DNA of 64,000 bases, taken from the NCBI RefSeq assembly GCF_000092405.1, contig NC_014220.1:2108001-2172000 (forward strand), read 5' to 3'. Within the stretch, counting starts at the first letter, position 1, and every line of letters begins with the position of its first letter. A program made the position numbers and the translations under genes. The notes beneath the pieces were generated by a model. The model ran no database searches. It was not told where the DNA came from and saw nothing but the letters and a program-made list of their open reading frames with translations. This DNA comes from Syntrophothermus lipocalidus DSM 12680 (GTDB lineage Bacteria; Bacillota; Syntrophomonadia; Syntrophomonadales; Syntrophothermaceae). Shown here in pieces: positions 5,349 to 24,760 of the stretch.

Positions 5349-5364
5349 TGCAACTTTCGTGCCA
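5349..5364 (-). promoter_or_regulatory. Sigma-54 promoter for nadK
   Basis: On the minus strand the sequence is TGGCACG-AAAG-TTGCA, a full match to the -24/-12 consensus with exactly 10 bp between GG and GC. Predicted transcription start near 5339, just upstream of nadK. GTGCC-N7-GACAC at 5359-5375 overlaps the -24 box; a good upstream dyad at the usual distance was not found. Confidence 0.85.
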
Positions 5365-5765
5365 CACTCTGACACAATTAGATTCCAGGTGGTAAATATC
5401 CACGACGTTATGAGTTTTCTCCATTACTTTAGGTAGGTTCTGGACCAAGCACCCCGATACCCGAATAGCTACGCTTCCCTTATCGCGCCGATGACGAGAC
5501 GCGTTATAGGACCTAAAACAACTCCCGCATGGGACTCAAACGCCAAACCCAAACGTACCTTACGGGCACTTATGAGTTGATATGCGGAACAAGAGGCATA
5601 ACAACATAGCAAAGGCACAAACCGAAATGCATATTTCGGATGGAGGTCTCCCGGATCAAGCTGAAACACTCAGCCGTTGGCATAGTATCTTCGCGAGTAC
5701 ATAGGTGGTACATACACCCAGCACCTAACTAATTTGCGCGAAGCACCAGCACGGATGAGTCAGTC
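5365..5765. other. Intergenic region between nadK promoter and ferredoxin
   Basis: Beyond the nadK promoter nothing clear is seen. A 66-codon minus-strand reading frame (5469-5669) shows no recognisable motif and is treated as chance. Confidence 0.4.
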
Positions 5766-6838: not shown

Positions 6839-8797
6839 TCATACAATACTGTACTTTTGCATTTTTCGATACAGGCTACTCCTCGATATCCCAAGTTCTT
6901 TGGCGACACGACTCTTATTATCTTTAAACTTCCGCAGGTAGTTTCTTATGAGTTGCTCTTCTACGTTATCCCGGGAAGGCGTCTTTTCCCATACAGGAAT
7001 ATACCCTTCTTGGCTTTGGATTATATCGAAGGGCAGAACATCTACTGTTATTACCTCTCCAAGCATCATACTAATTGCCCGTTCTATTACATTGCTCAGT
7101 TCCCTGACGTTACCAGGCCAATCATACCCTAGAAGCACATCCATAGCTCTGTCCTCAATTCCGGCAACTTTCTTTCCCATCCTCGGACCTATGGTCTTCA
7201 TAAAATGCTCGACAAGTTCCGGGATATCTCCTTTTCTTTCTCTCAACGGAGGTATCTGTATAACAATTACGCCAAGGCGATAGTAAAGATCCAGTCGAAA
7301 GCGGCCTTTCCTTACCTCATCCATGAGATTTTTATTAGTGGCTGCAATTACCCGCACGTTAACAGGAATTACCTCCGTTCCCCCCAATCGGACAACGTTA
7401 CCTTCCTCCAGCACCCGTAGCAACGATGCCTGAAGATCTAGCGCCATTTCTCCAATTTCATCCAAAAAGATCGTACCCTGGTCTGCGAGTTCAAATTTGC
7501 CTGGGTTGCCTCCTTTGCGAGCTCCCGTAAAGGCGCCTTCTTCATATCCAAACAATTCACTGCTAATAAGTTCTCTGGGTAGAGCAGCACAATTTATAGC
7601 AAAAAAGGGCTCACCCGCTCGGCTACTCGCATTGTGAATGGCTTGGGCAAGCAGATCCTTCCCCGTTCCGCTTTCTCCTAATAGCAACACATGTGAATCA
7701 GAAGTAGCCGCCCTTTCTGCCTGCCTTACCGCACTTTTGAAATTGCTACTGCTCCCAACGATGTCATCAAACGTGATCTTCGCCCGTGCTCCTGCTACCC
7801 GTTTTATCAGTCGCCTGTACTGCTGCATGGCTTGAAGAATAACCACCTTACCAAGTACCTTGTCATCGCGATTCACCAAGGGGGTAGAACTGACCGCCAG
7901 CTTAACCGTTTCATCCGTTTTTCGCAGAATCAACGGTTCGCTGCACAGTTTTTTGTTATCGGCCAACTTGGCTAAGAACAGCCTGTTTCCTGATGGAACT
8001 AGAGAGCACAACCTCTTACCCAGTGCCGTCCGGGGATCGAGGCCCAACATTCGGGCTGCCAGGCCATTCATATGCGTTACTTTTCCCTCTCGGTCCAAGG
8101 TTATAACTCCGTCCGACATAGAGTCCATGATAATGCTTTTGTACATGTTGGCCATCTCACTCTCCTGGCAAGCCTGGTACAAGGCAAGCTGCCTCTCTAT
8201 AGACCTCGCTGCGGCTACAGCCATTCCCAATGTATGACGGTTGACAAGCTCAAACGGACCCGTGATGTCAAGCACCCCGATAACGTTACCATCACTGTCA
8301 AATATGGGCGAGGCCGAACAGGTAGTTATGGTCGCACACAGGCAGTAATGTTCGTAGCCGAATACCTGCACCGGTTTGCCCAGGGCCAGTGCCAACCCCA
8401 CTGCATTAGTACCCATGACTTGCTCCGACCAGTTCGCTCCTTCGCTAAAGTTGGCCCCGGCTGTGAATTCCAGTTCCCACTTGTCGCCTATCCTTTTGAG
8501 GAGGTACCCGTCTCCATCCGCCAGTGTAAAAGCAAACCCTGAACCTTCAGTGAACTTGAACAGGTTCTGCATGCTCACCGTAGCCTCTTCGAGTAGTGCC
8601 CGGTTTTTTATGCGCCTTTTCTCCAACTCTTCTGCACTAAGGACATGATGATTCTTGCGTTTAAACGGGTCTACCCCATAAGCCCGGCTCCTGGCCCAGG
8701 AATCCCGTATCTCCTGGGATACTATAATTCCCTCACACTCCCCCTTTTCCCGCAACACCTTCCAGATACGAATCATTTCCTTTTTGTCCCCGTGCAT
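6839..8797 (-). CDS. AcoR-like sigma-54-dependent transcriptional activator (GAF-PAS-AAA-Fis)
   Basis: 652 residues. A GAF-like sensor region covers about 70-205 ([13 protein letters not shown], then [14 protein letters not shown]). A PAS domain lies at about 220-320 ([16 protein letters not shown]). The AAA+ domain covers about 345-580, with Walker A GESGTGKD, the sigma-54-contacting loop EGAFTGA, Walker B FLDEIGEM and the arginine-finger region [11 protein letters not shown] Fis-type helix-turn-helix is at the end ([16 protein letters not shown]). The order matches AcoR/DhaR-type regulators that sense a small metabolite with no kinase partner. GGAGGG is about 10 bases before the ATG. It sits among promoters of the class it would activate and is the only such activator visible, so it is the best candidate regulator of the beta-oxidation, ferredoxin, nadK and uspA units. 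The ligand is unknown; an acid or acyl-CoA is a guess. Confidence 0.95.
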
Positions 8798-19249: not shown

Positions 19250-19265
19250 TGCAAGAAGCGTGCCA
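19250..19265 (-). promoter_or_regulatory. Sigma-54 promoter of the maoC catabolic operon
   Basis: Minus strand TGGCACG-CTTC-TTGCA, a perfect -24/-12 match with 10 bp between GG and GC. Predicted start near 19240, 57 bp before the MaoC-like start codon. Confidence 0.88.
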
Positions 19266-19584
19266 ATCGTTACTTATGTTTAACACCAAACCGCATACTG
19301 TGTATCGTCTCCGCGCGCAAAAGTCTAATCTTATGAATGTGTTTCTTTCTGATACATAGTGATTGTGTCAACATGTTTCATCTGTCCGCCATGTTAATGA
19401 GCCGCATTTTACCCAAATAGCTACTGTATATAGCAACGTTTTGGAACCCTGTGCGCGCATACTCTTTTCCGCAAGTACCTGTCCAATTGTCAAGGTGACT
19501 ATATCTAATGCAAGGTCCTTGCCAGTCCCATCCCGCGCGTCAAGGTACGTACTTTACGGGGCTGTCAATACTTGGCGGATAGAG

Positions 19585-19601
19585 ATGTCTCAAAGCGACA
19601 C
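19585..19601. promoter_or_regulatory. Activator-site-like dyad ATGTC-N7-GACAC
   Basis: TGTC-N7-GACA symmetry as in the other sites, but about 350 bp upstream of the maoC promoter. Enhancer-type sites can work at that distance. A weaker half-conserved site at 19365-19381 is at the usual -133. Confidence 0.4.
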
Positions 19602-20592: not shown

Positions 20593-21426
20593 TTATAGCC
20601 GTTTGGCAATATCTAGTAACCCATTGGTGGTTGCTTCAATCTCCTGGAGGGATGAGGACAGCTCTTCGGTGGAAGCCGCCTGGCGAGCAGTAGAATCACC
20701 GGCTTTAATAGCCGCGGTAATCATATCTTTTACCTGTTCCTCAACATTAACCAGGGTATGATTAATGTCTTGGGTGAGATGCCTGACGCCGTCCGCCAGC
20801 TTTCGTATTTCCTCTGCGACAACGCCAAATCCCCGTCCCTGTTCTCCGGCGCGAGCAGCCTCTATAAGCGCATTAATTCCAAGAAGTTTCGTCTCTTGCG
20901 AGATTTCTCCAACGCGCTTTAATAATGTCTTGATCTCATTGACCGCGTCACTTACCCGGTTAGCTAGATTCGAAATGTTCTGAGATTGCACCGCGACCTC
21001 TTCAGCGCCTGAAGCCACCTCCTGTGAGGCGAGGTTTAACTGCTCGATAGAGGCATACAGCGTCTCGGAAATATTGACTATGGCTACCTGGTTCTTGAGG
21101 CTCCGGGACTGTCCAAGTACACCTACAGGCTCGTACGGGTTGTCCGGGTCGAACAAGGGTACCGCAATTACATTTGCCTCAACCCCATAAACCTCACGTG
21201 GAACAAATCTGCTCACCGCTCTCTTGCTTCGCAAGGCCTCGAGTGCCGCTCCGCCTTCCTGAAGAGGATCCCCAACTCCGAAGAATTCTCCAGGTGAATC
21301 TTCCCCCTTGACCATTCCGACAAATTTTTCGGTATTGGTAACCCATATGCAGATGCCTGTTGTACAAAAAGGCCTGAGTTGTTCAAGCTTATTGCAAAAG
21401 TCTTCCACTATTGAGGTCACTGGCAT
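20593..21426 (-). CDS. Soluble methyl-accepting chemotaxis-type protein
   Basis: 277 residues from ATG 21426, which has AAGGAGGG 6 bases upstream. The N-terminal 110 residues form a small sensory domain without membrane helices ([35 protein letters not shown]). The rest is a shortened MCP signalling coiled coil with the conserved hairpin tip [23 protein letters not shown] and [15 protein letters not shown]. There is no membrane anchor, so it senses something in the cytosol and signals to a CheA or acts locally. It lies downstream of the AAA+ ATPase gene in an operon with a sigma-54 promoter. The N-terminal domain resembles those of many short clostridial MCPs of unknown ligand. Confidence 0.88.
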
Positions 21427-21478
21427 TTCACCCTCCTTCAAACTCGTTCCCATGTTCTTGCTCTTAACAGACGCGAGG

Positions 21479-22588
21479 TTATCCTGCCGACCCAGCCTCC
21501 CCCGTCTCCTGCTTTCTTCCGAGCAGGTTCAGTATTCTTTTTCTTGGAGATTCGTAGGTCAGGCTATTAGTGACCTTAAGAAAAGTATCACCATCTACCC
21601 GGTGCTTGAGCGCCAGCGGAACCATGTCGATCACATCACTGATGGTAACCTGCTTCCGTTTGTGCAGTACACTGTACAGAATGGCCCCTTGCTGGATAGC
21701 TTCGACAGCCCGCAGGCTCTCCAGGTTGTGCTTGACATACATCCGGGCGATAAAGTCGCGGAGATAGTCCGGCATCTCCGCCACCTCGTACATCCTGGCC
21801 ATCTCAACTATCTTCTTACGGTACTCGGCGTTAGCCGAGTTTACTTCTTCGGCATCCACTCCCGTCTTGGTCTTCCGGGTACTCAACAGCATTTGCGCGA
21901 CTACTTCCACCGACCCCGCTCTTCCCATGTAGTAGACCATGTCAAATCGGTCCGATAGCTGCCTCCGCACCTCTTCCAGGGGCCCCGGTTCCTCGTCAGG
22001 GTTGGAAGCCGCCCACACCGATACCGTGATGGGAATTTCTACTACTGGGAGGCCCGCTTCCTCGATCTGTAGCCTGCCCGGCTTGTTACCCATTACGTCC
22101 AGCAGGATATCGGTTATCTCCGGTGAAGTGTCAGCTAACCGGTTTATCTCGTCAATGAAAAGTATCCCTCTGTGCGCCTGCGGTATGATGCCGGGCAAAA
22201 GAGCCGCCTGCGGTTTGACCTGGTCGGTTATCTTCGCCAAGTCGATACTCCCCGCTACCGTCCCCACTTTGGCGGAATGCGATATCTCCAAAAAAGGCAT
22301 TGGTATTTCCTCTATCCCAAGAGACTGTATCTCTTCCGTTCCCAGGTGCCTGTGTACTGGACAGTGCGGATTCTCCGGGTCACAGTTATATATACAGTCC
22401 TTAATCCTTCTAATCTTCGGTAATATGTCCCGGGCCGCCCGCATTATCGTGGTTTTCCCTGCTCCCCGCACTCCTTCGGCATGCAGGTGAAAAGCTTCCC
22501 CGCAGTAGGTAGATATGATAGACATCTCAACCAGGTCAAATAGCATCCGGTTCCCTTCGTGCCTGGCAAGTTTAAAATACGATTTCAT
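21479..22588 (-). CDS. AAA+ ATPase, magnesium-chelatase ChlI/MoxR-like
   Basis: 369 residues. Walker A is [11 protein letters not shown] (about 41-51), Walker [14 protein letters not shown], sensor 1 [12 protein letters not shown] and the arginine region [11 protein letters not shown]. The C-terminal helical lid includes [21 protein letters not shown]. This pattern fits the ChlI/MoxR clade of chelatase-like remodelling ATPases. A cysteine-bearing insert after Walker A ([15 protein letters not shown]) could hold a metal. Such ATPases usually work with a VWA-domain partner, but none is visible nearby. It sits between the small membrane protein and the chemotaxis-type gene under a sigma-54 promoter. 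Its target is unknown. Confidence 0.85.
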
Positions 22589-22623: not shown

Positions 22624-22854
22624 TTATAGATACGGGACTATTATGTATATAAGCGCTACAACGAGAGCACCCAACAACAGGTAGATGCTCAGTCGAAGGA
22701 TATCCACTGAATATCTCAGTATTCCGTCAAGGTCGTGTATGGTTACCTCTCTCTCCTCTTGCCCATCGTCACCAATCTCCCAGTCATCGTGCACAATCTC
22801 TTCAGATGTAATCTTCTTTACCGCCGTCCCGTCCCAAATTTTCCAGTCCTTCAT
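22624..22854 (-). CDS. Small protein with C-terminal membrane anchor, unknown function
   Basis: 76 residues from ATG 22854, which has GGAGGTG 6 bases upstream; an earlier ATG-like start at 22878 is less likely. The first 45 residues are acidic and soluble (EEIVHDDWEIGDDGQEERE). One hydrophobic helix follows near the C-terminus (IYLLLGALVVALIYIIVPYL), so it is a tail-anchored type membrane protein. I recognise no family. It is the first gene after a perfect sigma-54 promoter with an activator dyad and is followed by the AAA+ ATPase gene, so the two may work together at the membrane. Confidence 0.75.
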   Translation of the reverse strand: MKDWKIWDGTAVKKITSEEIVHDDWEIGDDGQEEREVTIHDLDGILRYSVDILRLSIYLLLGALVVALIYIIVPYL

Positions 22855-22933
22855 ACGTGCCACCTCCTCTGCTGGCATTCGGCCATGTACGCTGCAATTT
22901 TGTGCGTTCAGCGATCACTTCTTCCAACGGTTA

Positions 22934-22949
22934 AGCAATATACGTGCCA
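22934..22949 (-). promoter_or_regulatory. Sigma-54 promoter of the membrane protein/AAA+/chemotaxis operon
   Basis: Minus strand TGGCACG-TATA-TTGCT, a perfect consensus match. Predicted start near 22924, about 70 bp before the first start codon. Confidence 0.88.
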
Positions 22950-23040
22950 ATGGTCACCCGAAGAACTGGCAAAGAAAGTCTAAACTTAGCGTATTTCACT
23001 TTTGGCTACTAATACTTCATGCCCATTTGTCGGAACGCGT

Positions 23041-23057
23041 GTGTCACACGTGGACAC
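23041..23057. promoter_or_regulatory. Putative sigma-54 activator site (GTGTC-N7-GACAC)
   Basis: Perfect dyad centred near 23049, about 125 bp upstream of the minus-strand start at 22924 and about 160 bp upstream of the plus-strand start near 23209. Confidence 0.72.
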
Positions 23058-23073
23058 TTGTACTAGAGTCTCT

Positions 23074-23092
23074 CTGTCCCATTTCAGGCCAT
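23074..23092. promoter_or_regulatory. Second activator-site dyad (CTGTCC-N7-GGCCAT)
   Basis: Nine of twelve positions match GTGTCC-N7-GGACAC. Its centre (23083) lies about 126 bp upstream of the predicted plus-strand start, the same distance as seen for the minus-strand units, so each divergent promoter appears to have its own site. Confidence 0.5.
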
Positions 23093-23182
23093 ATTGTTTC
23101 TGCAAGCTGGTGGGCATACTGGACCGTCTCGAAGATAGCGCATGTACATTCCTATCTCGAAACGTGCCATAACAGGGGAGTT

Positions 23183-23198
23183 TGGCACGATTTTTGCT
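23183..23198 (+). promoter_or_regulatory. Sigma-54 promoter reading towards the orphan HTH gene
   Basis: Plus strand TGGCACG-ATTT-TTGCT, a perfect -24/-12 match. The predicted start near 23209 is about 148 bp before the HTH gene; no other reading frame lies between. Confidence 0.8.
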
Positions 23199-23356
23199 GA
23201 AGATTACCCTATGTGTGGAATGTAAAGGGGGAATAGCTAACTTATTCGATCGGGTTTCTAGCAGACCCCTCGAAGTGCGCAGCGATTCGCCATAATCAAC
23301 AGGGCTTTAGCCCCCTTTTCCCACTATCCTGTCTTAGTCCCGGGAGGAACAGCAGC

Positions 23357-23650
23357 ATGACCGTAAAGCAAAAAGCGTACACCGCCAACCAAAAGGTGGA
23401 CCTCATACTCCAATTTTTGAGCTCAGGAAAAAGCCTTTCCGAGTTCTGTGCCCAACAGCAAATAAAGCAGGATGAATTCCGGACGTGGAAAAAGCAGTTT
23501 TTCCAAGCCGGGCGCGACTCCCTGCGCTACGGGATAAGCTTCAGCACTTACAGGAAGCGTATTCAGGAGTTGGAGGAAAAAATCGAGCGTTTGGAACTGG
23601 ACAATATAATCCTCCAGGCCACTATACGTTTTCTGAGAGAACGCGGCTAG
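23357..23650 (+). CDS. Transposase-like helix-turn-helix protein (orphan OrfA type)
   Basis: 97 residues. It resembles OrfA of IS3/IS66-type elements: a helix-turn-helix (SLSEFCAQQQIKQDEFRTWKKQF) written here as SLSEFCAQQQIKQDEF and RTWKKQF, then a leucine-zipper-like tail (IQELEEKIERLELDNIILQA). GGGAGGAAC lies before the ATG. No OrfB with a DDE domain follows and no terminal repeats were found, so it is either an IS remnant or a protein kept for another use. A perfect sigma-54 promoter upstream supports the second view, because IS elements do not normally carry one. It could be a DNA-binding regulator in this circuit; that is speculation. Confidence 0.75.
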   Translation: MTVKQKAYTANQKVDLILQFLSSGKSLSEFCAQQQIKQDEFRTWKKQFFQAGRDSLRYGISFSTYRKRIQELEEKIERLELDNIILQATIRFLRERG

Positions 23651-23869: not shown

Positions 23870-24760
23870 TTACAGGCAGCGTTCTGCCCACAGCAGCTCC
23901 GCTTGGTTTGCCCACTTGGACGCATACTCATCCAGACCGTTGGCTAGTTCCTCGACATCAACCGGCAGTACTTGTGTTGAACTCGCCTGGCTTTCTTTGA
24001 CACACTCCACCAAACTGCGTGGATTATCGATCAGAGGACAGGGACGAAGATGGTTGGAATTAAACGGTTGTCTCCGCTGATAGGCTAAGAAGAGGGGATT
24101 CCCGAGTGCCTCCCTTATATTCGTATTTCTGACGTTACAGCAGGAATAGTGTATAAAGGCGCACGGTTCCACATCCCCCGCTGCATTAATGTGAAAATAC
24201 CTCCGTCCACCGGCGATGCACCCGTTTACAGTCTCCCCATCGTTCCAAAAGTCAGCCAGGAAAATAGGCTTTGACTGCCGCAACTCCTTAATACGCTTGT
24301 ATGCGTACCCCCGCTGCTCCGGGGTTGCCATGAAATCCAGGTCTGAGTTGGCCCCCACTGGAACGTACGTAAAAAACCAGCCAAAACGGAATCCTTTGTC
24401 GATGAGCATATCGATGAAGCTGTCAGAGGTTACTTCTTCGACGTTATGGCGATGATAAGTGGTAGAAAAACCAAAAATTAGTCCATGCTCCTTCAAAATG
24501 TCGGCCGCTCGCATGATTTTGGAAAATGTTCCTTTTCCCCGCCGCAGGTCATTGGTCTTTTCAAACCCATCGATGCTGATGGCAAAGGTTAGATTCGCGA
24601 CGTCCACACATTCCCTGGCGAATTGTTCATCAATGAGAGTCCCGTTGGTAAATAGAAGGATTATTCAGTAGAATGAATTTTTGGTATCATTTCAATTAAC
24701 TTGCCGAACCCTCCAAAAAAATTCTACAACCGCTGATGGTCAGGGAGCGAAATACGTGAA
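23870..24760 (-). pseudogene. Broken radical SAM/SPASM protein gene
   Basis: The readable part (23870-24607, from GTG) gives 245 residues: TFAISIDGFEKTNDLRRGKG, a TIM-barrel half, then a SPASM-like Cys region (GCIAGGRRYFHI, DVEPCAFIHYSCC, RPCPLID). Upstream in the same frame is LLFTNGTLIDEQFAREC, ending at a TGA near 24669. In other frames come KLIEMIPKIHS and RSLTISG, which are the expected preceding motifs, so at least two frameshifts have occurred. The N-terminal CxxxCxxC that binds the catalytic cluster is absent. The piece lies just beyond the terminator of the AOR cluster. It is a decayed gene and its former substrate cannot be told. Confidence 0.8.

Follow-up and report, generated by a model that had tools for sequence, protein, structure and literature searches.

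A predicted divergent sigma-54 control region between a MoxR/ChlI-type ATPase operon and an OrfA-like gene in Syntrophothermus lipocalidus

Divergent sigma-54 promoters are known from hycA/hypA of E. coli and Salmonella, where, according to a passage of PMC3844500 that cites Lutz et al. 1990, both promoters are FhlA-dependent. From a different quarter, the OrfA protein of IS2 (InsA) binds near its promoter and represses it (PMC3299598). Here we describe a locus that recalls both systems in Syntrophothermus lipocalidus TGB-C1, a syntrophic fatty-acid oxidiser (PMC3035303) whose genome is a single contig of 2,405,559 bp. The window analysed is a stretch of 64,000 nucleotides (positions 2,108,001 to 2,172,000 of NC_014220.1), numbered from its first letter, in which a sequence-only reading had claimed two perfect, divergent sigma-54 promoters with two tandem activator sites between them in a tidy symmetric layout. 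Little is understood of how syntrophic fatty-acid degraders regulate their genes, and the locus provides a control region open to testing in such an organism. Its promoters and genes are as follows.

22934..22950, minus strand (22950->22934): sigma-54 promoter TTGGCACGTATATTGCT, 13/13 consensus, predicted +1 at 22923
23182..23198, plus strand: sigma-54 promoter TTGGCACGATTTTTGCT, 13/13 consensus, predicted +1 at 23209
22624..22854, minus strand: 76-aa protein, encoded first in the minus operon, with a hydrophobic stretch at its C-terminus
21479..22588, minus strand: AAA ATPase of the MoxR/ChlI type, cobalto-/Mg-chelatase subunit I-like, under NCBIfam cut-offs
20593..21453, minus strand: soluble protein with an MCP signalling domain (PF00015, E 1.4e-20)
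23357..23650, plus strand: 97-aa standalone IS3-OrfA-like protein with a helix-turn-helix (HTH) and a coiled coil, with a GGGAGG ribosome-binding site

Promoters were scored on 13 consensus positions, with GG and GC fixed, and the predicted starts were counted from the C in the GC element, taken as -12. The GG/GC spacing is correct at TTGGCACGTATATTGCT and TTGGCACGATTTTTGCT, both of which carry the sigma-54 (-24/-12) sequence TGGCAC-N5-TTGCW; within the window both belong to the top score class, as does a third site, at 19250 (minus), and a fourth, at 5349 (minus, 12/13), has a perfect core. This core occurs 19 times in the S. lipocalidus genome vs once for the reversed-pattern control, so that ~18 of the 19 perfect-core sites should be non-random, and the genes that follow such sites genome-wide serve mostly beta-oxidation, CoA-transferase, redox or transport functions. 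When 19 sites are placed at random, ~1.2% of placements give a perfect pair that diverges within 300 bp, and 0.005% give, as in this genome, two divergent pairs within 600 bp. The first genes, each with a ribosome-binding site, begin ~69 nt (minus) and ~148 nt (plus) past the predicted starts, and the genome holds 15 strong/full-domain sigma-54 activator domains. By sequence standards, both promoters are confirmed as genuine. Elsewhere in the window, the 13/13 site at 19250-19266 (minus) stands before a MaoC/enoyl-CoA hydratase/hydroxyacyl-CoA dehydrogenase cluster, the 12/13 site at 5349-5365 (minus) lies directly before an NAD kinase-like gene, and a DhaR/AcoR-like sigma-54 activator gene (6839-8797, minus) occupies the end of a fatty-acid cluster.

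We found the region in one other genome only, that of the Syntrophomonadaceae MAG AS02xzSISU_72 (hereafter G001), so the depth of conservation is that of one comparison. Both promoters have counterparts there.

L063:202-218: minus promoter in G001, 16/17 identical, 13/13 consensus
L063:448-464: plus promoter in G001, 16/17 identical, 13/13 consensus

Conservation of both promoters in a related genome was the main test that the sequence-only reading had set for itself, and at the level of conservation its claim of a perfect divergent pair holds: the two are kept together in G001 with their orientation and with a spacing of 246 bp, vs 248 bp in S. lipocalidus. All 26 consensus positions are retained vs 76% identity (175/231) across the inter-promoter interval, which corresponds to p ~7e-4 on the assumption of independent positions. 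On one G001 contig we find, in order, the start of the small membrane-protein gene, the minus promoter, the interval, the plus promoter, the 97-aa gene and a convergent radical SAM gene. The S. lipocalidus radical SAM/SPASM gene (23870-24664, minus) is 5'-truncated: of the 447 residues of the intact G001 protein, 184-447 are left. The G001 gene has a 13/13 sigma-54 promoter of its own (L074:2640-2656). A divergent sigma-54 control region is a well-supported prediction for this locus.

Three inverted repeats in the interval between the promoters were considered as putative activator sites. Because the sequence-only reading gave no dyad coordinates, we took as its pair the two whose centres, 23049 and 23083, fit its statement that they lie 34 bp apart.

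23041..23057, centre 23049: dyad GTGTC-N7-GACAC, -126 from the minus start and -160 from the plus start, conserved
23075..23091, centre 23083: dyad TGTCC-N7-GGCCA, 126 bp from the plus start, weak
23134..23156, centre 23145: dyad GATAG-N13-CTATC, -64 from the plus start, conserved

The first dyad pairs at 5/5 arm positions and keeps 10/10 arm bases in G001, with 2/7 spacer bases changed; the second pairs at 4/5 and loses one more pair in G001 (TGTGC...GGCCA). One of the two proposed tandem sites is retained, while the other is imperfect and decaying, which leaves the claim of two tandem activator sites half supported. The symmetry of ~125 bp is real when measured from the predicted starts (126 bp each) but falls to ~100 bp from the promoter boxes, and the tidy arrangement is broken by the dyad at 23145, which that reading overlooked and which, with 10/10 arm bases kept in G001 around a diverged spacer, is better conserved than the one at 23083. 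The interval contains 3 perfect 5-bp inverted repeats vs a shuffle mean of 2.97, with no excess, and chance could account for the dyads taken by themselves; the first dyad as a functional site is moderately backed by its conservation, not by rarity. A perfect 13-bp palindrome, CGTGTGTCACACG (centre 23044), was set aside, as it is not kept in G001.

Genome-wide, TGTC-N7-GACA is not enriched (24 matches per strand vs 36 in the control) and GTGTC-N7-GACAC does not recur near most other sigma-54 promoters, and we rejected the latter as a genome-wide activator signature. Among perfect promoters it occurs here only, the one exception being a 9/10 match (GTGTC-N7-GACAT, 19585-19601) that lies 328 bp before the 19250 promoter. 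Conservation between the promoters is highest in the block 23031-23100, which is so positioned that it could serve both, and GTGTC-N7-GACAC, at a distance normal for an enhancer, is the best candidate for a shared activator site. A second divergent sigma-54 pair, at L071:8317-8637 (8317 minus, 8621 plus; thiolase / acyl-CoA dehydrogenase), has GTTTCACGATTGAAAC and GTGAAA...TTTCAC dyads (GTTTCA/TGAAAC-type included) between its promoters and is a clearer tandem-dyad case than the 22934-23198 region.

For the small protein of the minus operon, the ORF list gives a start at 22878; however, AGGAGGTG lies just before the ATG beginning at 22854, and the start is probably this one, giving 76 aa. The N-terminal part of the protein is conserved in G001, and a related small protein adjoins some AAA paralogues. 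Relatives of the AAA ATPase occur in 55/63 genomes of the order. No strong sigma-54 promoter was found upstream of the AAA paralogues of S. lipocalidus and related genomes, and we accordingly discarded sigma-54 control of the paralogues elsewhere; the absence of such sites suggests that sigma-54 control of the present copy is lineage-specific.

The plus-strand protein matches HTH_Tnp_1 (PF01527) at 34.5 bits, above the curated cut-off of 24.1, and also NF033516. Its predicted model has helices at residues 10-23, 27-33, 38-57 and 62-96, that is, an HTH followed by a long helix, and a fold search with the OrfA-like model returned weak matches only, mostly to HTH proteins. Comparison of the S. 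lipocalidus and G001 orthologues demonstrates purifying selection on the predicted protein (dN/dS = 0.15 over the full ORF). The family has five members, two in S. lipocalidus and three in G001, all standalone; beyond these, a search of 398 genomes of the phylum returned weaker IS-like matches only. Inspection of the ORFs adjoining the five genes showed no OrfB catalytic domain, and no IS3 insertion sequence could be assigned there. Neighbours of family members include thiolase/acyl-CoA dehydrogenase and CoA-transferase genes. All five have a sigma-54 site 118-226 bp before the start, scoring 11 to 13 of 13, where the background is ~1.8% of 200-bp windows in the sequences compared; none of 15 distant transposase-like relatives has a site scoring at least 10. 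A palindromic dyad with 4-bp arms common to three or more of the OrfA-like genes was sought and not found.

Based on the promoters, their conservation and the interval, we consider it probable that this is a genuine divergent sigma-54 region in which one enhancer-binding protein, acting at the dyad(s), activates both directions. The protein, probably among the genome's 15, would bind one or more inter-promoter dyads, most likely 23041-23057, and would loop to sigma-54 polymerase on both sides, so that the operon for the small membrane protein, the MoxR/ChlI-like AAA ATPase and the MCP-like protein would be switched on together with the 97-aa gene. We infer promoter activity, one common activator and this choice of dyad as binding site; no activator gene adjoins the region. 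The promoters might instead be independent, each with its own activator, the 23049 dyad serving the minus promoter and the 23145 dyad or another site the plus promoter. Two different conserved dyads are indeed present, and the other OrfA-like genes lack the GTGTC dyad, one of them (L072) having a GTTTCA...TGAAA-type site upstream instead; on the other hand, the 23145 dyad, ~64 bp from the plus start, is nearer than a usual enhancer, and the best conserved block of the interval, 23031-23100, is positioned for both promoters. We regard separate activators as unlikely.

Far less probable still is that the minus operon alone is regulated and that what is left of an insertion sequence accounts for the plus promoter and the OrfA-like gene, a reading suggested by the transposase ancestry of the gene and by the truncated radical SAM gene adjoining it in S. 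lipocalidus. It is already strongly disfavoured: the full ORF evolves at a dN/dS of 0.15, position and promoter are the same in G001, no second transposase ORF accompanies the gene, its paralogues stand alone, each with a sigma-54 site, and the genome has no close full-length element. We also rejected a sigma-54-driven small RNA ending at a hairpin at ~23301-23318, which has a fold z-score of -0.35 and no Rfam family; the hairpin is altered in G001, and at its position the plus strand is not called as a terminator. Under the preferred reading of a shared control region, the OrfA-like protein may be a regulator, perhaps with feedback, a role suggested by analogy only with the repression by IS2 OrfA of its own promoter. 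We tentatively suggest, at somewhat less than even odds, that Syntrophothermus and a close relative have taken over this transposase-derived family of small DNA-binding proteins as regulators under sigma-54 control, and that it may feed back on sigma-54 promoters. The family is lineage-specific and linked to sigma-54 promoters and, if the suggestion is true, would clearly exemplify the recruitment of a mobile-element gene into a regulatory network.

As in the sigma-54 regulons of Clostridiales (PMC6615313, a paper in which a word search finds neither Syntrophothermus nor Syntrophomonas), sigma-54 and enhancer-binding proteins occur here in Clostridia. The divergent layout itself is already known, and what is more unusual is the tie of the OrfA-like genes to sigma-54; we found no paper on that family or tie in the open-access literature. 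The 97-aa protein shares an N-terminal HTH and a coiled coil with IS3-family OrfA proteins such as IS2 InsA, but its gene differs from IS3 OrfA in having no OrfB and no surrounding element, in being conserved in place and in having a sigma-54 promoter ahead of it. Like hycA/hypA of the formate hydrogenlyase system, the region has two sigma-54 promoters facing apart, although the promoter boxes lie ~115 bp apart there (PMC3844500) vs 232 bp here; unlike that system, it involves neither FhlA nor hyc/hyp genes, and its shared activator is putative.
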